A stretch of DNA of 37,076 bases from Solirubrobacterales bacterium (lineage in GTDB: Bacteria > Actinomycetota > Thermoleophilia > Solirubrobacterales > 70-9). Below the pieces are notes generated by a model. That model saw only the letters and a list, made by a program, of their open reading frames with translations, was not told the DNA's origin and searched no databases. The position numbers and the translations under genes are program-made. Below are positions 2,148-22,968 of the stretch, in pieces. The stretch lies in assembly GCA_017882505.1 (NCBI GenBank), contig JADGPJ010000019.1, positions 1 through 37,076 of the forward strand, in the 5' to 3' direction. Numbering within the stretch: position 1 is the first letter of the stretch; each line of letters begins with the position of its first letter.

Positions 2148-4058
2148 ATGGCCCAGCGCATCCCCAGAGACGAATCGCTGAGCCGCGTTCACGGCGTCGG
2201 CGCGCTGTTCTCGGCGGCCTACGGCAACGTCGGCTCCTCGATCTACTACGCGCTCGGGGTCACCGCCGCCTTCGCCCTCGGCCTGACCCCGGTCGCCTTC
2301 GTCATCTCCGGCCTGATCTTCGCCGCCACCGCCGCGACCTACGCCGAGGCGACGGTGATCTATCCGGAGGCCGGCGGCTCCTCGAGCTTCGCCCGCCACG
2401 CCTTCAACGAGCTGGTCAGCTTCATCGCCGCCTGGGGGCAGATGCTCAACTACACGATCACGGTCGCGATCTCGGCCTTCTTCGTGCCCCACTACCTGGC
2501 GGTCTTCTGGCCCTGGCTGGGGAACAGCCCCGGCGACATCATCGGCGGCGCGGCGCTGATCGTCGGCCTCGCCCTGATCAACATCCGCGGCACCGAGGAG
2601 TCGGCGAAACTCAACCTGATCCTCGCCATCGCCGACCTCGCGACCCAGGCGGTGCTGGTCGGGATCGGCCTCGTACTCGTCTTCAGCCCGCAGGTGCTGG
2701 TCGACAACATCCATCTCGGCGTCGCCCCGAGCTGGAGCGATTTCGCCCTCGGCATCGCCGTCGGGATGATCGCCTACACCGGGATCGAGACGATCTCCAA
2801 CATGGCGGAGGAGGCCAAGGACGCGGCGAAGACGATCCCGCGCAGCGTCGGTCTCGTCGTCGTCGCCGTACTCGGCCTCTACCTGCTGATCCCGATCGTC
2901 GCCCTGTCGGCGATGCCCGTCGTCAAAGACGCCGCCGGCCACTACTCGACCGCTCTCGGCACGACCTTCGCCGACGACCCGATCCTCGGCATCGTCGAGA
3001 ACCTCGGGCTCTCCTCCGGCCCGACCGAAATCCTCCGCTACTACGTCGGCGTGCTGGCGGCGGTGATCCTGCTGATCGCCACCAACGCCGGCCTGATCGG
3101 CGTCTCCCGCCTCACCTACTCGATGGGCCAGCACCGCCAGCTGCCGGAGGGTCTGCGGCAGGTCCATCCCAAGTACCGAACGCCGTACATCGCGATCCTG
3201 ATCTTCGCCGCGATCGCGATCGTCACCCTGATTCCGGGCCAGACCGACTTCCTGGCGACGATGTACTCGTTCGGCGCGATGCTCTCGTTCACGATCGCTC
3301 ATGTGGCGGTGATCCAGTTGCGGCGCAAGAATCCTGATGTCGAGCGCACCTGGAAGCCACCGCTGAACTTCCGTGCCTTCGGCTTCGAGGTGCCCATCAC
3401 CGCGGTCCTCGGCGGCCTCGGCACCTTCGCGGCCTGGATCGTGGTGATGGCGCTCAACCCGCGCACGCTGATCGTCGGCACCGGCTGGATGGCGCTGGGA
3501 ATCGCCGTCTACGTCCTCTACCGGCGCAACCAGAAGCTGCCGCTGACCGAAACCGTGAAGGTGGTGACGCCGGAGCCGCTGGGGGTCGAGGAGGTCGAGT
3601 ACCGCAGCGTCCTGGTTGGCTTCGAGGACGGCGAAGCCTTCTCGCCGGAGATGGTCGCGACGGCGGTCAAGCTCGCCTCCAAGCGCCGCCGCGGCATCCA
3701 CGTCCACTCGATGCTGACCGTCCCCACCCACCTGCCGCTGAACGCCGAGATACCGGATCAGGAAGCCGGTGCCCAGCGCAAGGTCGAGGAGGCGAGGCTG
3801 ATCGGCGGCCAGCGGGTCACCGGCCACGTCGCCCGGGTCCGGCCCGGCCAGGCCGGCTACTCGGTCGCCGAGGAGGCGAAAAAGATCAAGGCCGCCGCGA
3901 TCGTGATCGGCCTGCGCCGTCGTGGCGGCGTGCCCCTCTACGACAAGATGCTGCAGACGGTGCTCGGCGAGCGGCCCTGCCGCGTCATCGTCGTCTCCGA
4001 CCCCACCGACAAGCCGGTCGCGATCCCAACCGAAGCCCTGGCGGAGGTGGCGAAGTGA
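2148..4058 (+). CDS. APC-superfamily permease with C-terminal USP domain
   Basis: A 636-residue integral membrane protein. Residues about 15-465 form an APC-fold transporter with about twelve hydrophobic segments, including the helix-1 region SAAYGNVGSSIYYALG and GGSSSFARHAFNE. Residues about 485-625 form a cytosolic universal-stress-protein (USP) like domain starting YRSVLVGF and ending in CRVIVV. The usual USP ATP loop (GxxG then GS) is not obvious. The layout resembles mycobacterial Rv2690c, encoded beside ceoB/ceoC, and the APC-type K+ importer KimA, which also has a cytosolic C-terminal domain. Potassium is therefore as plausible a substrate as amino acids (inference). Its stop overlaps the next gene (GTGA at 4055-4058). 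Confidence 0.85.
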   Translation: MAQRIPRDESLSRVHGVGALFSAAYGNVGSSIYYALGVTAAFALGLTPVAFVISGLIFAATAATYAEATVIYPEAGGSSSFARHAFNELVSFIAAWGQMLNYTITVAISAFFVPHYLAVFWPWLGNSPGDIIGGAALIVGLALINIRGTEESAKLNLILAIADLATQAVLVGIGLVLVFSPQVLVDNIHLGVAPSWSDFALGIAVGMIAYTGIETISNMAEEAKDAAKTIPRSVGLVVVAVLGLYLLIPIVALSAMPVVKDAAGHYSTALGTTFADDPILGIVENLGLSSGPTEILRYYVGVLAAVILLIATNAGLIGVSRLTYSMGQHRQLPEGLRQVHPKYRTPYIAILIFAAIAIVTLIPGQTDFLATMYSFGAMLSFTIAHVAVIQLRRKNPDVERTWKPPLNFRAFGFEVPITAVLGGLGTFAAWIVVMALNPRTLIVGTGWMALGIAVYVLYRRNQKLPLTETVKVVTPEPLGVEEVEYRSVLVGFEDGEAFSPEMVATAVKLASKRRRGIHVHSMLTVPTHLPLNAEIPDQEAGAQRKVEEARLIGGQRVTGHVARVRPGQAGYSVAEEAKKIKAAAIVIGLRRRGGVPLYDKMLQTVLGERPCRVIVVSDPTDKPVAIPTEALAEVAK

Positions 4059-4261
4059 GCCCGGAGCGGGGGGCGGGGGAGCGCGTCTACCGCGGGGCGA
4101 TAAGGGGGTTCTCGCTCGTCTTCATCGCCGTCGGGCTCGTCGTCTTGGTGGTGACCCTGGCCAACGGGGGTGGGCCGCTCTCGGTCGGGTTCCTGATGGG
4201 CATCGCCTTCGTTGGCGTCGGCGCCGGCCGGCTCTGGGTCGGATCGAGGATGGGGCAGTGA
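4055..4261 (+). CDS. Small two-helix membrane protein
   Basis: A 68-residue protein with a short charged N-terminus and two hydrophobic segments (about residues 19-37 and 42-61). It starts at a GTG overlapping the stop of the upstream permease and ends overlapping the GTG of the next permease, so all three should be translated together. I do not recognise the family. Its place between two APC-USP permeases suggests a small accessory or assembly subunit of one of them, but this rests on context alone. Confidence 0.7.
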   Translation: MSPERGAGERVYRGAIRGFSLVFIAVGLVVLVVTLANGGGPLSVGFLMGIAFVGVGAGRLWVGSRMGQ

Positions 4262-6234
4262 GCCAACCCGAGGGGGGGATGCCTCCGGGCGCGCCCGGCA
4301 AGGAGGGAAGGGAGGGAAAACTCCAGCGCGGCCTCGGCGTCCCCTGGCTCTTCGCCGCCGCCTACTCGGCGGTCGGCTTCTCGATCTACTTCGCCCTCGG
4401 CGTCGTCGCCGAGCGCGGCCTCGGGCTGACGCCGCTGATCTTCCTCGCCTCGGGCCTGCTCTTCGCCCTGACCACGCTCAGCTACGTCGAGGGCGGCGCG
4501 ATGTTCCGTGAGCGCGGCGGCTCCTCAACCTTCGCCCGCCACGCCTTCAACGAGCTGATCGCCTTCGTCGCCGGCTGGGCGATTCTCATCGACTACCTGA
4601 TCGTGATCGCCCTGGCGGCGCTCTCGGTGCCGCACTACCTGGCGCCGATCTCCGGCAGTTTCGACAAGCCGGCATTGGAGATCGGCGTCGCCGCCGCGGT
4701 GATCGCCGCGGTCTGCGTGCTCAACATCCTCAACGTCACCGGGCGTGGCAAACAGCGCTCTCTCGCGTTTCTGGCCCTCGCCGACCTCGGCCTGCAGCTG
4801 GCGGTGATCGTCGTCGGGCTACTGGTCGTCTTCCACCCCGACCGGCTGACCGCCCAGCTCGACCTCTTCACCCAGCCCAACTTCAAGGACATCGTCTACG
4901 CCGCCGTGGTCGCGATGCTCGCCTACGCGGGGATCGAGGCCGCCTCGGACCTCGCTCCCGACATCGAAGTCAACAAGCGCGACCTCAAGCGGATCGCCTC
5001 GCTGGGGGCGGTCGCGGTGCCCCTGGTGTACGCCGGTATGGCGGCAATCGCGCTGATGGCCGTGCCCGTGGTCGCCGGGCCGCACGGCCCGGAAACGGCG
5101 CTCGGCGGCCAATACCTCAAGGATCCGGTGCTCGGCGTCGTCTCCGCCTTCCACCCGCACTGGGTGGCGGAAACGATGCGCTGGATGGTGGCGCTGATCG
5201 CCGCCCCGGTCCTCTTCTGGGCCGCCAACACCTCGATGCTCGGCGTCTCCCGCCACATCTACACGCTGGCGATCAACCGCCAGATCCCGAGCTGGCTCGG
5301 CAAGCTCGAGAAGCGCAACGCGACGCCCTACGTCGCGATCACGATCTGCGGCTTCATCGCCCTCGGTCTGGTGATCCCGACCAACGTCAAGCTGCTGGCC
5401 GGGATCTACGCCTTCGGAGCGACGCTGGCGATCACGATCGCCCACCTCTCGATCATCCGCCTGCGGGTCAAGGCACCGGACAAGTCGCGGCCCTTCCGGA
5501 TTCCGCTCAACGTTCGCTGGGGCGGGGCCGATCTGCCGCTGCCGGCCATCCTCGCCGCGATCCTCAGCGGCCTCGCCTTCATCAGCGTCCTCGCCTACCA
5601 CACGACCGCCCGCTGGGTGGGGATCGGCTGGATGGCCTTCGGCCTCCTCTTCTACGTCGTCTACCGCAAGGTCTTCGAGGGGACGACGCTGACCAAGCGG
5701 GTCTCGGTTCCCGAGCACGCCCTGACCAAGCAGGTGCCGGAGGCCGAGTTCCGCAACATCCTCGTGCCTGTCTTCGGGACCAAGTTCGACGACGACATCG
5801 TCGCCACCGCCGGGCGCCTGGCGGCGGCCGAGCTCGAGGGCTCCGACGGCGGCGATTCCCACCTCGATGTCGTCTTCGTGATCGAAGTGCCGCTGACCCT
5901 GCCGCTCGACGCGAAGCTGCCGCAGGAGCGCGAGGACGAGGCCCAGCGGGCTCTGGCCCGGGCCCGCGAGGTCGGCGAGGAGTACGAGGACGTCGACGTC
6001 AATACCGAGGTGATCCGGGCCCGCAAGATAGGTGCCGGGATCCTCGAGGCCGCCCGGCGCGCCGGCTCCGAGGCGATCGTGATCGGCGGTGAGCCGCCGA
6101 CCAAGATCCGCGGCGGCGCGATGATCGGCGGGATCGGCGCCGCCAAGCCGGCCGAGATCGGGGCCGCGACGGAGTACGTGCTGAAGAAAGCCCCCTGCCG
6201 GGTCCTGCTCACGGCACCGCCCGAACCCGAATAG
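4258..6234 (+). CDS. Second APC-superfamily permease with C-terminal USP domain
   Basis: A 658-residue paralogue of the gene at 2148. It has the same helix-1 motif (AAYSAVGFSIYFALG), the same GGSSTFARHAFNE motif, about twelve membrane segments, and a C-terminal USP-like domain from about residue 495 (FRNILVPVFG) to the end (CRVLLTAP). The frame stays open back to 3922, but that extension would run through two upstream genes. The GTG at 4258 overlaps the preceding stop (GTGA) and is preferred; ATG at 4279 is the alternative. The USP part is better kept than in the paralogue (VIVIGGEP followed by a Gly-rich loop). Followed 28 bp later by an RCK protein gene. Confidence 0.85.
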   Translation: MSQPEGGMPPGAPGKEGREGKLQRGLGVPWLFAAAYSAVGFSIYFALGVVAERGLGLTPLIFLASGLLFALTTLSYVEGGAMFRERGGSSTFARHAFNELIAFVAGWAILIDYLIVIALAALSVPHYLAPISGSFDKPALEIGVAAAVIAAVCVLNILNVTGRGKQRSLAFLALADLGLQLAVIVVGLLVVFHPDRLTAQLDLFTQPNFKDIVYAAVVAMLAYAGIEAASDLAPDIEVNKRDLKRIASLGAVAVPLVYAGMAAIALMAVPVVAGPHGPETALGGQYLKDPVLGVVSAFHPHWVAETMRWMVALIAAPVLFWAANTSMLGVSRHIYTLAINRQIPSWLGKLEKRNATPYVAITICGFIALGLVIPTNVKLLAGIYAFGATLAITIAHLSIIRLRVKAPDKSRPFRIPLNVRWGGADLPLPAILAAILSGLAFISVLAYHTTARWVGIGWMAFGLLFYVVYRKVFEGTTLTKRVSVPEHALTKQVPEAEFRNILVPVFGTKFDDDIVATAGRLAAAELEGSDGGDSHLDVVFVIEVPLTLPLDAKLPQEREDEAQRALARAREVGEEYEDVDVNTEVIRARKIGAGILEAARRAGSEAIVIGGEPPTKIRGGAMIGGIGAAKPAEIGAATEYVLKKAPCRVLLTAPPEPE

Positions 6235-8673: not shown

Positions 8674-8744
8674 TGCGCCCTGGTGTAATGGCAGCACGCC
8701 TCGCTCTGGACGAGGAAGTCGGGGTTCGAGCCCCTGGGGCGCAG
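8674..8744 (+). tRNA. tRNA-Gln (anticodon CUG)
   Basis: The cloverleaf folds completely. The acceptor stem TGCGCCC (8674-8680) pairs with GGGCGCA (8737-8743), and the discriminator is G8744. A D-arm (GTG/CAC) is present. The anticodon stem CCTCG/CGAGG holds loop CTCTGGA with anticodon CTG at 8706-8708. The T-arm has loop TTCGAGC at 8725-8731. The U1-A72 pair and G73 are typical bacterial glutamine identity elements. The 3' CCA is not encoded. It lies in the gap between the flavoprotein and lipoprotein genes. Confidence 0.95.
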
Positions 8745-8779
8745 CTCTAAGTACCTGCATAAGCGTCGATTCGCTCTGC

Positions 8780-8792: not shown

Positions 8793-9515
8793 ATGAGATC
8801 TTTCAAGTACCTGACGATCGCAATCTCGCTGGCCGGGCTCCTGGCGCTGGTCGCGGCCGGCTGCGGCGGCGGTGGTGGCAGCGAAAGCACCGCCACGGCC
8901 GAAAAGACGACCGAATCGAAGCCGACCCTGAGCAAGGAAGAGCTGATCACCCAGGGGGACGGGATCTGCGCCGAGGTCAACGTCGCGGTCAGCTCCGTCG
9001 GCTCCTCGGCCGCGGACACGCAGAGTCAGACCAGTCAGGTCGCCGACCTCTACTCCGGGATGGTGCAGAGGCTCAAGGATCTGGGCGCGCCGGCCGAATC
9101 CTCCGCCGAGTACACCGAATTCATCTCGGCCGCGGAAGAACTCTCGAAAGTCGAGGGGGAAGTGAAACTGGCCGCCGAACGCGAAGACACCACTGCACTG
9201 GGCGAAGCCGCGACCAGAGCCACTCCGGCCCTCGAAAACTTCGAGACGACGGCCGCCGTGTACGGATTCGAAGAATGCAGCGAAGGCCCGCATGCCCCGA
9301 CCGTCGCGCCGTCGACCTCGGGCCCTGAATCCGAAGCCGAAGAAGGTGGCGTCGAAGCGGCCCCCGAAGAAATCGAAGAAATCGTGCCCGAAGAAGCGGC
9401 GCCCGAAGAAGTGGTGCCGGAAACCGGCGGTGCCGGCGGCGGCGAAATCGAAGAAGTCGCCCCCGAAGGCGGCGGCGAAAGCGGTGGGAGCAGCGGCGGC
9501 GTTGGTCCGGGTTGA
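8793..9515 (+). CDS. Secreted lipoprotein with acidic low-complexity tail
   Basis: A 240-residue protein. It begins with a lipoprotein signal (hydrophobic residues 8-22, lipobox LVAAGC), then a Gly/Ser/Thr linker. A helical domain of about 120 residues carries two further cysteines (DGIC and FEEC) that could form a disulfide. From about residue 175 the tail is Glu/Pro/Ala/Gly-rich with repeated PEE/EEV blocks and ends in Gly/Ser. It should be anchored to the outer face of the membrane. The function is not recognised. The ATG at 8793 follows a TAGCGT -10 box by 7 nt. It converges with the ABC exporter genes. Confidence 0.8.
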   Translation: MRSFKYLTIAISLAGLLALVAAGCGGGGGSESTATAEKTTESKPTLSKEELITQGDGICAEVNVAVSSVGSSAADTQSQTSQVADLYSGMVQRLKDLGAPAESSAEYTEFISAAEELSKVEGEVKLAAEREDTTALGEAATRATPALENFETTAAVYGFEECSEGPHAPTVAPSTSGPESEAEEGGVEAAPEEIEEIVPEEAAPEEVVPETGGAGGGEIEEVAPEGGGESGGSSGGVGPG

Positions 9516-9576
9516 CCGGGGTCCGGCCCGGTCGCGGTCCGAGTTCAGCTCGACTCCGCGAAGTGAGGTCGGTCGC

Positions 9577-11418
9577 CTACGCGGCCGAGCTGTCGGACCA
9601 GGCACCGTAGAGCTGCGCGTAGGCGCCGCCCGCGGCGATCAACTCGTCGTGTGTGCCCTGCTCGGCGATCCGCCCGCCTTCGAGGACGACGATCTTGCCG
9701 GCACGCCGGATCGTCGAGAGGCGGTGGGCGATGACGATCGCGGTACGACCCTGGAGCAGGCGCTCGAGGCCCTTCTCGATCGTTTTCTCGGTCCGCACGT
9801 CGACGTTCGAGGTCGCCTCGTCGAGGATCAGGATCCGCGGCTCGGCGAGCAGGGCGCGGGCGAAGGCGACGAGTTGGCGCTGGCCTGACGACAGCTGCAC
9901 GCCGCGCTCGCCGACCTCGGTCTCGATCCCCTCCGGCAGCGCCGTTACGAACTGGCTCGCGCCGACCGTGGCGACCGCGGATTCGATCTCCTCCAGGCTC
10001 GCCTCGGGCCGGCCGAAGGCGATGTTCTCGCGGACGCTGCCGGAGAAGAGGAAGCCCTCCTGGGGAACGATCCCGAGCTGGCGGCGCAGCGCCTGCTGGC
10101 GAACCCCGCGCAGATCATGGCCGTCGACCAGGACCCTGCCTTTCTGCGGGTCGTAGAAGCGGGCGACGAGCTTGGCGAAGGTCGACTTTCCGGCCCCCGT
10201 GGCCCCGACCAGCGCCAACGTCTGCCCCGGCGGCACGTGGAGATCGACGTCTCGCATCGCCCACGAGTCCTCCGCGGGCTCGGCATCGTCGCTGTAGGAG
10301 AACCAGACGCCGTCGAGCTCGATCTCACCCCTCAGCGTGCCCGGGTCGATCGCGTTCGGAGCGTCGACCATGTCGGGCTCGGTGTCGAGCAGGTCGAAGA
10401 TCTTGTCGAGCGCGGCCATCCCCTGCTGGTAGGTCGTGTACAGCTGCGAGAGTTCCTGGATCGGTTCGAAGAAGGTCGCCAGGTAGCCGACGAAGGCGAC
10501 GATGACGCCGATCTGGATCGCGCCTTCGATCGCCTGCTTGCCGCCGTAGAGCAGGATCACCGCGGTCCCGATCGCGGCCAGCAGTTCGACCGCGGGGAAG
10601 TAGGAGGCGTTGAGGTAGACCGTCTTCATGTTCACGGCGCGGTTCTGCTCGTTGAGGTCGGTCATCACCGCCTCGTGGCGGGGCTCCTGGCCGAAGCTGC
10701 GGACGACGCGGACGCCGCTCAGCGTCTCCTGCAGGTAGGAGGTGACTGCGGCGATTCGCTCCCTGGTCGCCCGGTAGGTGCCGGCGGAGACGATCCGGAA
10801 GACGACGCTGGCGACCGCGAGCAGCGGCAGGGTGATGAAGGTGACCAGGGCCAGCTGGACGTCGAGGAAGAGCAGGATGACGACGACACCGACCAGGGTC
10901 AGCGTGGCCGAGAACATCGTCACCACGCCCGAGGTGACGAGCTGGTTCAGCGCCTCGACGTCGTTGGTCATCCGCGAGATCAGCACGCCCGGGCTGCGGC
11001 GGGTGAAGAACCCGATCGACATCGACTGAATGTGGGCGAAGAGGCGCTCGCGCAGGTCCTGGAGGGCGCGGGTGCCGACCCAGCCGACCAGGTAGGTCTC
11101 GGCGTAGGTGCCGACCGCGTAGAGCAGCGCGGCGACGACGAAGGCGGCGACGGTCAGGTCGAGGGCGTTGAGGTCGCCGGTTTCGATCCCGGCGTCGATC
11201 GCCTTCCCGGCCAGGAAGGGAGGGGCGAGACCGGCACCGGTCTCGATCAGCAGCGCCACGAACATCAGCGCCATACGGCCGCGGTAGGGACGCAGCAGCC
11301 CGATCATCCAGCGCACCTTGCGCCCGCGCTGGTCCTCGCCCCGGACCAGGCGCCAGAGCGCCCCGAAGAGCAGGAAGACGTTGCGCAGCCTGTTGGTCCC
11401 GGGCTCGCGATCCCTCAT
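9577..11418 (-). CDS. ABC exporter half-transporter, catalytic-Glu subunit
   Basis: A 613-residue protein with an N-terminal six-helix exporter domain (about 50-350) fused to an ATPase domain. Walker A is GATGAGKST (about residue 405), the signature is LSSGQRQ (about 508) instead of LSGGQ, and Walker B is ILILDEA (about 527) with the catalytic Glu. Q-loop (VPQEGFLF) and switch His (IVIAHRLS) are present. It starts at an ATG overlapping the stop of the upstream subunit by 4 nt. The two complement each other's deviant motifs as in heterodimeric exporters such as TM287/288 and BmrCD. The substrate is unknown; lipids, peptides or drugs are possible. Confidence 0.92.
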   Translation of the reverse strand: MRDREPGTNRLRNVFLLFGALWRLVRGEDQRGRKVRWMIGLLRPYRGRMALMFVALLIETGAGLAPPFLAGKAIDAGIETGDLNALDLTVAAFVVAALLYAVGTYAETYLVGWVGTRALQDLRERLFAHIQSMSIGFFTRRSPGVLISRMTNDVEALNQLVTSGVVTMFSATLTLVGVVVILLFLDVQLALVTFITLPLLAVASVVFRIVSAGTYRATRERIAAVTSYLQETLSGVRVVRSFGQEPRHEAVMTDLNEQNRAVNMKTVYLNASYFPAVELLAAIGTAVILLYGGKQAIEGAIQIGVIVAFVGYLATFFEPIQELSQLYTTYQQGMAALDKIFDLLDTEPDMVDAPNAIDPGTLRGEIELDGVWFSYSDDAEPAEDSWAMRDVDLHVPPGQTLALVGATGAGKSTFAKLVARFYDPQKGRVLVDGHDLRGVRQQALRRQLGIVPQEGFLFSGSVRENIAFGRPEASLEEIESAVATVGASQFVTALPEGIETEVGERGVQLSSGQRQLVAFARALLAEPRILILDEATSNVDVRTEKTIEKGLERLLQGRTAIVIAHRLSTIRRAGKIVVLEGGRIAEQGTHDELIAAGGAYAQLYGAWSDSSAA

Positions 11419-18834: not shown

Positions 18835-21063
18835 ATGAGCAAGCAGAAGCCGAGCTACGACGCGGGCCGGATCGAGCCGGCCAGACAGGCCGCCTGGATC
18901 GAGCGCGGCGACTTCGAGGCGCCGCGGCCGGCCGCCGGACAGGCGCGGGTCTACGTCAAGCCTTCGAGCCCGTTCACCTCCGGCAACCTGCACATGGGTC
19001 ACGTTCGCGACTACTCGATCGGCGACGCCTATGCCCGCTTCCGCCGCGCCCGCGGTGACGCCGTCCTCTTCGGCTTCGGCTTCGACGCCTTCGGCCTGCC
19101 GGCTGAGCTGGCGGCAATCGAGCGCCAGGAGCCGCCGGCCGATTGGGTGGCGCAGTGCGGCGAGCGGATGCTCGACCAGATGAAGCGGCTCGGGTTCTCC
19201 TTCGACTACGACCGCGTCTTCTACAGCTCCGACGAGGGCCAGTACCGCTGGTCGCAGTGGCTGTTCCTGGCCCTGCTCGACGCCGGACTGATCTACCTCG
19301 ACGACGCCACCGTCGACTGGTGCGACACCTGCCGCACCACCCTCGCCTCGATCCAGGTGGAGGACGGGCGCTGCTGGCGCTGCCACAACGAGGTCCGCCT
19401 GATTCGCCGCCCAACCTGGTTTCTGCGCATCACCCCGTATCTCGAGGAGAACGACGCCAACACCGACGAGCTCGAGAACTGGGACGACCTCGCGCTCGCG
19501 ACCCAGCGCTACATCCTCGGCCGCAGCGACGGGGTGGAGCTCGACCTCGAGGGCAGCGGCGGCCCGCTGACGGTCTTCAGCCCCCACGGCGACGCGGTCG
19601 GTCTCGCCGGTTTCGTCCTGCTCTCGCCGCGCCACCCCGCGGTCGACGCCTGGGTGAGCGACGCCGAGGTTGGTGAGCAGCTCGAGCAGATGCGCTCGGG
19701 CGGCTGGGATCGCAGCGCCCGCGACGCTCGCTCGGTCCCCGTGCTCGACACCGGAGGCAGCGTCAGCGCTCCCGACGGCACCGATCTGCCGGTCCTGATC
19801 TCACCGATCGTCGACGCCCGCTTCGGGCCGACCGCGGCCTTCGGCATTCCCGCCGTCGACGAGGCCGATCGCGACGTCGCCGCCCGCTTCGACCGCGTCG
19901 CCTCCTGGCGGGAGCCGGAGGACGGCGAGGACCCCGTGGCCCCGCCGGTGGACGGCGCCCGCCCGGCGAAGCGCTACCGCGCCAACGACTTCTCGATCTC
20001 ACGCCAGCGCTCCTGGGGTACGCCGATCCCGGTCATCCATTGCGAGGATTGCGGCCCGGTGCCGGTGCCCGAGGCCGACCTGCCGGTGGTGCTTCCGCGT
20101 GACATCAAGCCGACCGGCGAGGGCAACCCGCTGGCCGAGCGACCGGACTTCGTCGATGTCGCCTGCCCCAAATGCGGCGTCCCGGCCAGGCGTGAGACCG
20201 ACACCCTCGACTGCCATTTCGACGCGCTCTGGCTCTGGGTCCCGGCGGCGGTCCCGCCCGAGGCCCGCGAGAAGCAGATGTTCGACCACCCCGACCTGCG
20301 GGAGTGGCTGCCTGCCGAGCGCCTGGTCGCAGGCGGCGACAGCGGCGGCTTCGTCTTCGACCAGCGCATCGTCACCAAGGCGCTGCGCGATCGCGGCACC
20401 TTCGACTTCATCGAGAACGGAGAGCCGTTCGCCGGCTGCCTCTTCCACGAGATGGTGATCGCCGACGGGCGCAAGATGAGCAAGCACCTCGGCAACGTCG
20501 TCAACCCCGACGAGCTGGTCGAGCAGTACGGGGCCGACACCGTGCGGCTGGCGATCCTCTACGCGGCGGGGCCGGCGAAGACGCTGAACTGGAGCGCCGG
20601 AGCCCTGCGCTTCGCCAACCGCTTCCTGCGCAACCTCTGGACCTACTCGCAGGACCGCATCGCGGCGCTCGAGGACGCCCGGCACGACGAGGCGGCCGCC
20701 GCCGATACCGAGCACATGCGCGACCGCCTCGGCAAATGGTGCGACAACGGCCTCGAGCGGATCACCGCCGACATCGAGCAGCTGCAGATGCACAAGGCAA
20801 TCCGCAACCTCACCCGGCTCTTCGAGCGGATCCAGGACTTCGAGAAGAGGGTGGTGAAGCGCCGCGGCCAACTCGACCGCGCCGACGCCGAGGCGCAGAT
20901 CGCCGCTCTGGTCCTCCTCGCGCAGGCGCTGGCGCCGTTCGCGCCGCACGCCGCCGAGGAGCTGCTGATCGCTTCCGGCAGGGGGGACGGGCCGGACCTG
21001 CTCGGCGCCTGGCCCGAGCCCGCGGCGATACCGGTTTCCGCCGCCGGCGCGGCGAGTCCCTGA
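18835..21063 (+). CDS. LeuRS-like class I aminoacyl-tRNA synthetase paralogue
   Basis: A 742-residue class I synthetase closest to leucyl-tRNA synthetase. Signatures: HMGH at 53-56 in SGNLHMGHVRDYSIGD, a Cys4 zinc-like site (Cys163, 166, 180, 183), RQRSWGTPIP at 390-399, a second Cys set (403, 406, 444, 447), and KMSK at 547-550. Three features differ from normal LeuRS (typically 800-970 residues). The editing-site threonine motif TTRPDT is replaced around 246-254 (TVFSPHGDA). The EHA-HLLY element after KWLP is replaced by GGDSGGFVFDQ. The C-terminal tRNA-binding domain with QVNGK is absent. Probably not the housekeeping leuS. The ATG lies 10 nt after TAGCCT without an SD. Confidence 0.85.
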   Translation: MSKQKPSYDAGRIEPARQAAWIERGDFEAPRPAAGQARVYVKPSSPFTSGNLHMGHVRDYSIGDAYARFRRARGDAVLFGFGFDAFGLPAELAAIERQEPPADWVAQCGERMLDQMKRLGFSFDYDRVFYSSDEGQYRWSQWLFLALLDAGLIYLDDATVDWCDTCRTTLASIQVEDGRCWRCHNEVRLIRRPTWFLRITPYLEENDANTDELENWDDLALATQRYILGRSDGVELDLEGSGGPLTVFSPHGDAVGLAGFVLLSPRHPAVDAWVSDAEVGEQLEQMRSGGWDRSARDARSVPVLDTGGSVSAPDGTDLPVLISPIVDARFGPTAAFGIPAVDEADRDVAARFDRVASWREPEDGEDPVAPPVDGARPAKRYRANDFSISRQRSWGTPIPVIHCEDCGPVPVPEADLPVVLPRDIKPTGEGNPLAERPDFVDVACPKCGVPARRETDTLDCHFDALWLWVPAAVPPEAREKQMFDHPDLREWLPAERLVAGGDSGGFVFDQRIVTKALRDRGTFDFIENGEPFAGCLFHEMVIADGRKMSKHLGNVVNPDELVEQYGADTVRLAILYAAGPAKTLNWSAGALRFANRFLRNLWTYSQDRIAALEDARHDEAAAADTEHMRDRLGKWCDNGLERITADIEQLQMHKAIRNLTRLFERIQDFEKRVVKRRGQLDRADAEAQIAALVLLAQALAPFAPHAAEELLIASGRGDGPDLLGAWPEPAAIPVSAAGAASP

Positions 21064-21154: not shown

Positions 21155-21418
21155 TCAGCTGGGGCGAGGGGCTTGCCTGACGTCGAAGCGACGCTGCTGG
21201 GGAAGCCAGGAGATGCCGGCGCAGAGCTCGGCCGGGGTCGTCTCCAGGGCGCCGGCGAGCTTGACGATCGTCCCCAGACGCGGCTCGCGTCCCGCCCGCT
21301 CCAGCAGCGAGATCTCGGTCCGGTGCAGATCGCAGCGATTGCCCAGCTCTTCCTGGGAGATCCCGACCTTGACGCGGGCCTGGCGAAGGTTGACGGCAAA
21401 GCGCTCCTGGGGGCTCAC
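21155..21418 (-). CDS. XRE-family helix-turn-helix regulator
   Basis: An 87-residue single-domain DNA-binding protein. The helix-turn-helix runs over about residues 9-65 (LRQARVKVGISQEELG, then HRTEISLLERAGREP), the Cro/CI type fold. It begins at GTG 21418 without a clear SD. An imperfect palindrome, CTAC-N5-GTAG, lies about 35-50 nt upstream and could be its own operator. It converges with the LeuRS-like gene and is divergent from thrC, so thrC is a possible target; no evidence fixes this. Confidence 0.85.
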   Translation of the reverse strand: MSPQERFAVNLRQARVKVGISQEELGNRCDLHRTEISLLERAGREPRLGTIVKLAGALETTPAELCAGISWLPQQRRFDVRQAPRPS

Positions 21419-21551: not shown

Positions 21552-21580
21552 TTGAGCGCTGACAACCTATGTGTTATACC
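21552..21580 (+). promoter_or_regulatory. Sigma-70-type promoter of the thrC leader
   Basis: TTGAGC (21552-21557), a 17-nt spacer and TATACC (21575-21580) form the best full -35/-10 pair in the window. Transcription should begin near 21587, giving a leader of about 68 nt before thrC with two small overlapping ORFs. Confidence 0.55.
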
Positions 21581-21590
21581 CGTGCGAACA

Positions 21591-21658
21591 ATGGAAGAGC
21601 GCCGAAAGTGACCTTGGCCCAGGCGGTCGGGTTCGCGGCAGCAAAGGAGGAGTCATGA
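21591..21658 (+). promoter_or_regulatory. Two chained mini-ORFs in the thrC leader
   Basis: ATG 21591 opens a 6-codon ORF (MEERRK) whose TGA overlaps the GTG at 21608. That GTG opens a 16-codon ORF (MTLAQAVGFAAAKEES) whose TGA at 21656-21658 overlaps the thrC ATG at 21655. Both junctions are 4-nt overlaps, GTGA and ATGA. The strong SD AAAGGAGG (21643-21650) serves thrC. The peptides are not threonine- or isoleucine-rich, so this is not a classical attenuation peptide. Confidence 0.35.
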
Positions 21659-22968
21659 GTGACGCGGTCGATCCGCATCTGGGAGGCCCCACCGGGCCAC
21701 GAACCAGCTCCTGCGCCACTGAACTCATCTGCCGCGATTGCGGCTACCGGACGCCGCTGCTCGACACCGCCTTCAAGTGCCCCGCCTGCGGCGAGGGCCT
21801 CGACATCGACTATGACTACGGGCGGGCGAAGACGCTGATCGCCGAGCGCGGCCCCGACCAGCGCCCCCTGAACATCTGGCGCTTCGAGGAGCTGCTGCCG
21901 ATCACCTCGCGCAGTGCCCAGTCCAGGGTCGGTCAGTTCTCCGGCAAGACGCCGCTGATCCGCGCCGACCGGCTCGGCGCCGAGCTCGGCCTGCGGAACC
22001 TCTACCTGAAGGACGACTCGACCAACCGGCCGACCCTCTCCTACAAGGACCGGGTGGTCAGCGTGGCGATCGCCCGGCTGCTCGAGCTCGGCAAGGACGA
22101 GGTCGGCTGCGTCTCGACCGGCAACGTCGGCACCGCGGTCGCGGCGCTCGCCGCCAAGGCTGGCGCCACCGCCTACATCTTCTACCCGGGCAACATGGAG
22201 AAGGGCAAGGCGAAGGCCTGCCGGGCGCTGGGCGCCCAGGTCTGCCAGCTCGACGGCAACTACGACCAGGCCAACCGCGCCTGCCGCGAGCTCTCATTGG
22301 CCAGCGGCATCGAGTTCGCCAACATCACCCTGCGGCCGTTCTACGCCGAGGGGGCGAAGACGATGGCCTTCGAGGTCGTCGAGGAGTTCGACTGGGTCTC
22401 CCCGGACCATTTCGTGATCCCGGCCGCGGGGGGGACGCTCTCCTCGCGCGTCCACAAGGGGCTCAACGAGCTTGAGCTGGTCGGGCTGGCGGAGACCGCG
22501 GGGACCAAGATCAACATCGCCCAGGCGAGCGGCTGCGGGCCGATCGCCAGGGCCATCCTCGAGGGCGGCGAGATCCATCCCCAGACCCCCGAGACGGCGG
22601 CGCACTCGCTGGCGATCGGCGCTCCCGGCGATGGCGCTCTCGTCGTCGACGCCGTCCGCAGTCGCGGCGGCTCGGCCGCCACCGCTTCGGACCCGGAGAT
22701 CTTCGAGGCGATCGACCTGCTCGGCAAGACCGAGGGCATCCTCACCGAGCCGGCCGGCGGCACCACGGTCGCCTGCACCGCGCGGCTCGCCGCAGAGGGG
22801 AAGATCGGCGCCGACGACACCGTCGTCGCCGTGATCAGCGGCAACGGGTTGAAGACGCTTCAGGAGCACCCCGACAAGCCCTGGCCGGAAATGGTCAGCT
22901 GCGACGCCGAAACGATGGGCGAGATGCTCAACGACTTCCGCCAGGCGGCCGCGGCCGCGCTGCACTGA
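21655..22968 (+). CDS. thrC: Threonine synthase
   Basis: A 437-residue PLP enzyme that converts O-phospho-L-homoserine to L-threonine in the cytosol. An N-terminal zinc-ribbon-like motif uses Cys26, Cys29, Cys42 and Cys45, as in some threonine synthases. The PLP lysine is Lys131 in TLSYKDR, where most members have GSFKDR, and the phosphate-binding loop is STGNVGT at 154-160. The C-terminal GNGLKTL is also typical. Start chosen at ATG 21655 because AAAGGAGG lies just upstream; the open frame from 21571 has no such site. A hydrolase gene follows 11 bp after the stop. The LSY variant deserves note, but the overall family match is good. Confidence 0.85.
   Translation: MSDAVDPHLGGPTGPRTSSCATELICRDCGYRTPLLDTAFKCPACGEGLDIDYDYGRAKTLIAERGPDQRPLNIWRFEELLPITSRSAQSRVGQFSGKTPLIRADRLGAELGLRNLYLKDDSTNRPTLSYKDRVVSVAIARLLELGKDEVGCVSTGNVGTAVAALAAKAGATAYIFYPGNMEKGKAKACRALGAQVCQLDGNYDQANRACRELSLASGIEFANITLRPFYAEGAKTMAFEVVEEFDWVSPDHFVIPAAGGTLSSRVHKGLNELELVGLAETAGTKINIAQASGCGPIARAILEGGEIHPQTPETAAHSLAIGAPGDGALVVDAVRSRGGSAATASDPEIFEAIDLLGKTEGILTEPAGGTTVACTARLAAEGKIGADDTVVAVISGNGLKTLQEHPDKPWPEMVSCDAETMGEMLNDFRQAAAAALH

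Follow-up and report, generated by a model that had tools for sequence, protein, structure and literature searches.

ProRSx/tRNAProX of Streptomyces appears to be the nearest published kind of system to the synthetase and tRNA discussed here. According to two papers, ProRSx is a duplicated synthetase which ignores the anticodon and stands beside an intact canonical enzyme, and tRNAProX, whose gene often adjoins that of ProRSx, is an odd tRNA with an anticodon that differs between lineages (PMC9437257, PMC10365949). The present article concerns a gene at positions 18,835–21,063 (+ strand) of a 37,076-nucleotide stretch of DNA from a Solirubrobacterales bacterium (assembly GCA_017882505.1, contig JADGPJ010000019.1), the whole of which is called the window below. 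The gene starts with ATG and encodes a protein of 742 amino acids resembling bacterial leucyl-tRNA synthetase (LeuRS), and its family consists of two types, A, to which the window's protein belongs, and B, which co-occur with tRNAs having an extended D-arm. The protein is likely to be a LeuRS-derived synthetase dedicated to one such tRNA, having lost leucine recognition, editing and the C-terminal domain.

Like ProRSx, the LeuRS-like protein is a paralogue existing beside an intact canonical synthetase (a leuS gene on contig C44 of the same genome) and co-occurring with an odd tRNA. This tRNA adjoins the gene in 12/12 type B loci and in 0/22 type A loci. The differences are that the parent enzyme is LeuRS here and ProRS there, that the amino-acid pocket is replaced here and kept there, that the D-loop of the tRNAs here is extended by 22 to ~140 nucleotides (nt) and that the type A tRNA may be the sole UUC tRNA. 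CysRS*/SelC* of the Desulfobacterales is similar in that a truncated synthetase has co-evolved with an unusual tRNA; however, it is described as acting at UGA with a SelB homologue, and none was seen beside the LeuRS-like genes (PMC9437257). Archaea, too, are described as having a second LeuRS in which editing is disrupted or activity is low, LeuRS-I in Sulfolobaceae and LeuRS2 in Halobacteria, but these bind ordinary tRNA-Leu and no dedicated tRNA is reported in the available text (PMC9437257, PMC3436685). The agnB2 LeuRS of Agrobacterium (PDB entry 5ah5) is likewise a second LeuRS, with a fold close to that predicted here, although it is a leucine enzyme whose structure, by the title of the entry, contains tRNA and a leucyl-adenylate analogue. 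Bacterial LeuRS in general (TIGR00396) has in common with the window protein the fold, HIGH, KMSK and an editing domain, here a relic, while the protein scores under the cut-off of that model and its pocket, editing Thr and C-terminal domain are gone. No description of a LeuRS paralogue with a D-loop-extended tRNA was recognised in the literature searched, most subscription journals and preprints being outside its coverage.

The LeuRS-like protein and its family

The genome of the window (G000; 2.63 Mb, 127 contigs, 93% complete) contains on contig C44 a canonical full-length leuS of 829 amino acids, with TTRPDT and GGVEHAILH. The preliminary description, which was made from the letters of the window alone, had proposed a check for such a separate leuS, and the LeuRS-like gene is thus not the only one in its genome. 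Pfam and PDB comparison groups the 742-amino-acid protein with bacterial LeuRS, the PDB sequence 1h3n scoring 364 bits, and the protein reaches 441 bits against TIGR00396, the leuS equivalog, below the cut-off of 548.4. The closest named database records are metagenome-assembled genomes of Thermoleophilia (80% identity) and Solirubrobacterales (63%, partial). The top solved fold matches of an AlphaFold2 model (11-row alignment, mean predicted local distance difference test score 78, predicted template-modelling score 0.79) are all LeuRS, namely 7nu9 (Z 38.0, root-mean-square deviation 5.4, 671 residues), 5ah5 (Z 37.9, root-mean-square deviation 5.0, 680 residues) and 4aq7 (Z 36.9). The structural alignments end at about model residue 727, that is, at about 789–808 of LeuRS, and therefore the LeuRS C-terminal domain is without counterpart in the window protein, which ends ~60–80 residues before the end of bacterial LeuRS. 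The preliminary description was right in this. The anticodon-type helical bundle is retained (PF08264 match).

Residues were compared in a table of 30 type A, 11 type B and 16 canonical LeuRS sequences, using Escherichia coli LeuRS numbers. HMGH (the HIGH motif, H53–H56) is intact at 18,991–19,002 (+), with both His in 41/41 sequences of the two types, as is KMSK (K547–K550) at 20,473–20,484 (+), which is followed by His and not Ser (KMSKH) in 41/41; HIGH, D80 and the KMSK lysines are likewise retained in 41/41. Together with RQRSWGTPIP, these motifs had been correctly described as intact. The surroundings of the amino acid are different. SSPFTSGN at 18,964–18,987 (+) takes the place of LeuRS MLPYPSGE, so that the M40, L41 and Y43 positions are Ser, Ser and Phe (Ser at M40 in 30/30 type A, Phe at Y43 in 41/41 of both types). 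DCHFDALW at 20,209–20,232 (+) takes that of DTFVDSSW, with His for F493 (40/41), Ala for S496 (Ala or Gly in the family) and, next, Leu at the Y499 position, which is Leu in type A and Gln, Met or Thr in type B. At 20,329–20,367 (+), AGGDSGGFVFDQR stands for LeuRS GGVEHAILHLMYAR, the E532 position being Asp in 41/41, the H533 position Ser in type A and Gly, Ala or Thr in type B (His in 0/41), and H537 deleted in 41/41. All five leucine pocket positions (F493, S496, Y499, H533 and H537) are consequently replaced in the window protein, and the pocket has changed as a unit across both types. The last segment had been described as an EHA-HLLY element replaced by GGDSGGFVFDQ and as a sign of lost editing; it is indeed replaced, with one residue deleted, but it belongs to the amino-acid pocket. 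The conserved HIGH and KMSK together with the replaced pocket make adenylation by the protein plausible and leucine specificity not.

The editing site itself is represented by a remnant of the connective peptide 1 (CP1) domain at 19,516–19,893 (+), which matches PF13603. TTRPDT, which had been noticed to be replaced, reads SPHGDA; the T252 position is Ala in the window protein and Thr in 1/41 of the family, while D342 (40/41) and D345 (41/41) are retained.

Relatives were searched in 232 genomes of the order, and the clade of types A and B is present in 49 of them. Type A is found, as full-length or partial relatives, in every genome of the genera g1 (12), g11 (3) and g31 (24), and type B in seven genomes of g22, one of which holds two copies, and in G192, G045, G155, G204 (fragments) and G059, G045 and G155 carrying both types. 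In a 62-row tree a long stem sets the clade apart from 20 canonical LeuRS, the Shimodaira–Hasegawa-like approximate likelihood ratio test (SH-aLRT) support being 100 at either side of it; type A is one group (support 100) and type B is not cleanly one group. The phylogeny against LeuRS which the preliminary description had called for thus sets the protein apart. The word "eroded", used there, is misleading, since much of the apparent erosion is replacement that the aligned sequences, 30 of type A and 11 of type B, have in common; the protein belongs to a conserved enzyme family and is not a decaying copy.

Outside the order, the aligned best matches in a phylum sample (396 genomes) keep TTRPDT, one having TTTPEL, and look like LeuRS variants; viral contigs gave no relative at the sensitivity used. 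One genome of another class (locus L045, G509:C121) has a LeuRS copy with TTTPELI for TTRPDT and a changed pocket segment, GGVEHATTVYIHDRF, which is placed on the canonical side of the tree with a long branch. Within type B, the relative at L069 (G059, ~9030–11083) is degraded and has lost HIGH and KMSK.

Two of the functions suggested in the preliminary description can be judged from these data. A spare or drug-resistant LeuRS, charging tRNA-Leu with leucine as agnB2 does, would agree with the LeuRS fold of the model and with 5ah5 (Z 37.9) among its best matches. However, a resistance copy is extremely improbable because the leucine pocket itself is lost, with all five positions replaced and neither H533 nor H537 kept in any of the 41 sequences, and because the clade covers whole genera; in addition, the C-terminal domain is absent and the score is under the leuS cut-off. 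If the protein were an MshC-type ligase, activating an amino acid without any tRNA, or a pseudo-enzyme that still adenylates, the loss of the editing and C-terminal domains and the degraded relative at L069 would be accounted for, but this reading can hardly be entertained because the helical bundle remains and a partner tRNA exists with both types. A third suggestion, a synthetase for another acceptor, is the option backed by the evidence, for the gene co-occurs with a tRNA of unusual structure.

The tRNAs with an extended D-arm

The tRNA accompanying type B is a giant RNA of ~205 nt, in which the cloverleaf is complete and an insertion of ~140 nt breaks the D-loop. It adjoins the gene in 12/12 type B loci examined. 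Nine of these have it upstream, at a distance of 30 to 222 nt; L054 and L060 have it immediately downstream, and in L069 it lies on the opposite strand, divergent to the gene. In G204 the gene fragments and the giant RNA are on separate contigs. RNAalifold gives the four arms and a helix within the insertion, 11/36 pairs having changes on both sides, and Rfam recognises a tRNA only, at the 3' part, in 6/7 sources. A covariance model of the giant RNA run over the 232 genomes gave 13 giant matches, in exactly the 12 type B genomes, with the anticodons UAG (7, all g22), UUC (2, a second copy in G082 and G204), UUG (2, G045 and G155), UAA (1, G192) and CCU (1, G059). An ordinary tRNA-Glu(UUC) is retained in 9/10 type B genomes without a type A gene (confirmed by ARAGORN in five and also seen in G086).

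The same model gave a second class of matches of 95–97 nt and 71–85 bits, ordinary tRNAs of 71–76 nt reaching up to 77 bits. Among the matches listed, this 96-nt tRNA is confined to type A genomes, of which 35/39 have it, the four remaining ones (G039, G145, G165 and G167) each being at most 78% complete. In the genome of the window it lies at C19:155–250 (−), on a contig other than that of the gene. The 17 distinct sequences align without gaps, 99.6% of pair cells are paired, and 10/27 pairs have changed on both sides, as high a number being found in 0/500 shuffles; in the extra D-loop helix 5/6 pairs have done so. The anticodon loop CUUUCAA is invariant in 17/17, and from this anticodon, UUC, the 96-nt tRNA most probably reads GAA. 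It shares acceptor stem, A73, D-stem and insertion site with the giant tRNAs, while its D-stem and variable loop are unlike those of tRNA-Glu(CUC) of G000.

The 96-nt RNA is the sole UUC tRNA found in G041 (100% complete, 48 tRNA matches) and G153 (97% complete, 45 tRNA matches), whose lists hold every other expected isoacceptor as well as tRNA-Glu(CUC). The set of G000 is similar, though also without Asp and Phe tRNAs, probably owing to an assembly gap.

From this co-occurrence, the LeuRS-like protein probably charges the D-arm-extended tRNA. In the proposed mechanism, the retained class I adenylation machinery would activate an amino acid other than leucine and transfer it to this tRNA, chosen by acceptor stem, A73 and D-arm and not by anticodon; the missing C-terminal domain would fit an insertion at the tRNA elbow, judging from LeuRS–tRNA structures. 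In type A the product would feed GAA codons on the ribosome, the amino acid being presumably Glu or Glu-like.

GAA and GAG codons in type A genomes

In type A genomes GAA and GAG do not replace each other freely. The LeuRS-like gene itself avoids GAA, which makes up 28/1722 GAR (GAA or GAG) codons across 30 type A genes compared with 29/488 in six canonical leuS genes of type A genomes (Fisher 1.8e-6), and 11/700 in g1 compared with 990/7106 in g1 cytosolic-class genes (Fisher 2e-29). The window's gene has 0/48, and when the genes of the window's genus that contain 45 or more GAR codons (41 genes) are ranked by GAA, the LeuRS-like gene takes all nine lowest places. Exported proteins of this genus, conversely, prefer GAA. 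The "secreted" class is a crude hydropathy class, defined by a hydrophobic segment near the N-terminus and a low number of further membrane segments, and its GAA share compared with that of the cytosolic class is 568/1067 vs 990/7106 in g1, 34/99 vs 95/1242 in g11 and 59/148 vs 604/5625 in g31, but 40/782 vs 351/5833 in three non-A genomes and 9/223 vs 92/1579 at type B loci. In regions flanking leuS (G041, G033) the median GAA share is 0.389 in 25 secreted genes vs 0.149 in 152 cytosolic genes (Mann–Whitney p 0.0023), and the bias is not significant in three control regions. In addition, the two codons are partitioned between sites: when orthologues of different type A genera are sorted into three bins by identity, GAA/GAG odds ratios of 19.4, 11.4 and 18.9 result, vs 2.8, 1.1 and 4.4 among non-A genomes, and most other two-codon pairs are near 1. 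These values were obtained after a codon-position guanine + cytosine filter which kept 1094/1368 open reading frames, since antisense frames (GAA being TTC of the true frame) inflate odds ratios, and the counts are not independent, as orthologue pairs share genomes. The exported-protein preference could reflect a special residue, or a gene set made dependent on one synthetase.

Next-base context was rejected as a cause of GAA choice, its effect being too weak, and neighbour-residue profiles around GAA were uninformative as a guide to the amino acid. As a separate observation, a lipoprotein-like gene of 240 amino acids at 8793–9512 (+) of the window, adjoining a tRNA-Gln(CUG) at 8674–8745 and having no Pfam match, contains 35 GAA vs 5 GAG; its orthologues in L047, L048 and L081 have 37–46 GAA, many in the proline/glycine-rich C-terminal part.

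Several results weigh against the proposal. In conservation tests on cytosolic genes, GAA compared with non-A homologues fits Glu best (log-likelihood gain 665, next Gln 353), and the same is true of secreted genes (132, next Gln 89; 10 genes, three dominating), less information per site being obtained for GAA than for GAG of the same class. GAA also stands at invariant Glu columns (38/612 GAR codons vs 20/678 in non-A). The AAA/AAG partition is raised in type A as well, with odds ratios as high as 5.5 between genera and 17 inside g1, and at the LeuRS-like locus region of G146 (g31), with 4 secreted genes, the secreted-gene GAA bias is not significant. The variation of the type B anticodon suggests that there is no fixed decoding role there, and the 96-nt tRNA is unlinked to the gene in all 22 type A loci examined, the window included. 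A narrow tRNA-Glu(UUC) pattern fails in 164/232 genomes, many without a LeuRS-like gene, so absence of this tRNA is not specific to type A; the matches of the pattern are sound, as 15/16 fetched were tRNA-Glu(UUC), three of them belonging to non-A genomes (G020, G021, G026) in the same family as the genome of the window. Type A genomes may, moreover, have an intron-split tRNA-Glu(UUC).

The AAA share, observed apart from this, is 0.23 in g1 vs 0.03 in non-A for cytosolic-class genes, with no secreted-gene bias in unbiased regions. A secreted GH92 enzyme has nine all-Glu columns in six type A orthologues, five GAG, two GAA and two mixed.

That GAA as a whole now stands for a different canonical amino acid is excluded by the best fit of Glu and by GAA at invariant Glu columns; by conservation, GAA appears to read as Glu or something Glu-like in type A. 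A simple explanation would make the 96-nt RNA the tRNA-Glu(UUC) of this clade, a substrate of ordinary GluRS and unrelated to the LeuRS-like protein, in keeping with Glu as the best fit and with the lack of another UUC tRNA in G041 and G153. It is nevertheless very improbable: the D-loop insertion site and acceptor stem are those of the giant tRNAs beside type B genes, the D-stem and variable loop are not those of tRNA-Glu(CUC) of G000, the RNA is found in 35/39 type A genomes among the matches listed, and the LeuRS-like gene avoids the codon.

Alternatively, the enzyme would charge the odd tRNA to make a donor for a non-ribosomal reaction (a ligase, or lipid or peptide aminoacylation), and the anticodon would drift. 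Type B agrees with this in that its 13 tRNAs have five different anticodons, and an elbow insertion of ~140 nt looks hard to fit on the ribosome. The invariant anticodon loop of type A, the confinement of anomalous GAA usage to type A genomes among those compared, and the absence of a conserved acceptor-enzyme neighbour at the loci examined make it unlikely. The dedicated synthetase and tRNA proposed here may take a stronger form, in which the type A pair would insert at GAA a non-canonical Glu-like residue, made or processed by the adjacent threonine-synthase-like enzyme and distinct from the residue at GAG. If this were true, exported proteins would be expected to be rich in GAA and the synthetase gene to exclude it, and the conservation test would report Glu; this form is distinctly unlikely.

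Neighbouring genes and significance

The threonine-synthase-like pyridoxal phosphate enzyme just mentioned is encoded at 21,571–22,968 (+) and is the sole gene kept near type A across genera (20/22 type A loci). It is the third ThrC-family copy in G000 and could be a supplier of the charged amino acid. Between it and the LeuRS-like gene a small Cro/C1-type helix-turn-helix gene lies at 21,158–21,418 (−), an arrangement found in g1 loci only (9 loci); the intergenic segment 21,064–21,570 was considered as a giant tRNA and rejected when this gene was found there. Other neighbours were rejected as functional partners, for they vary by lineage and look like local synteny: IMPDH, GMP synthase and L13 in g31, hydrogenase maturation at second copies in G045/G155, and alcohol dehydrogenase in g22. 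The type B second copies of G045 and G155 (L054, L060) stand, in two different families, beside isochorismatase, AIR-synthase-related and HypF genes. In seven g31 loci (L056, L059, L075, L076, L077, L079 and L083) the type A gene is followed, a few kb further on, by an ordinary 87–90-nt tRNA-Leu(GAG), which is probably plain synteny. The window also contains, at 2148–6231 (+), two successive amino-acid permease genes with C-terminal universal-stress domains.

The LeuRS-like protein and its oddly built tRNA are probably a separate amino-acid channel into protein synthesis. Few natural synthetase–tRNA pairs stand apart from the set of their host, and such pairs provide genetic-code expansion with its raw material. 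Since the anticodon is not read by enzymes of the LeuRS type, this pair could be aimed at many codons. If GAA and GAG differ in the residue that they carry in these bacteria, mass spectrometry of one isolate would make it possible to test whether the standard code hides amino acids.
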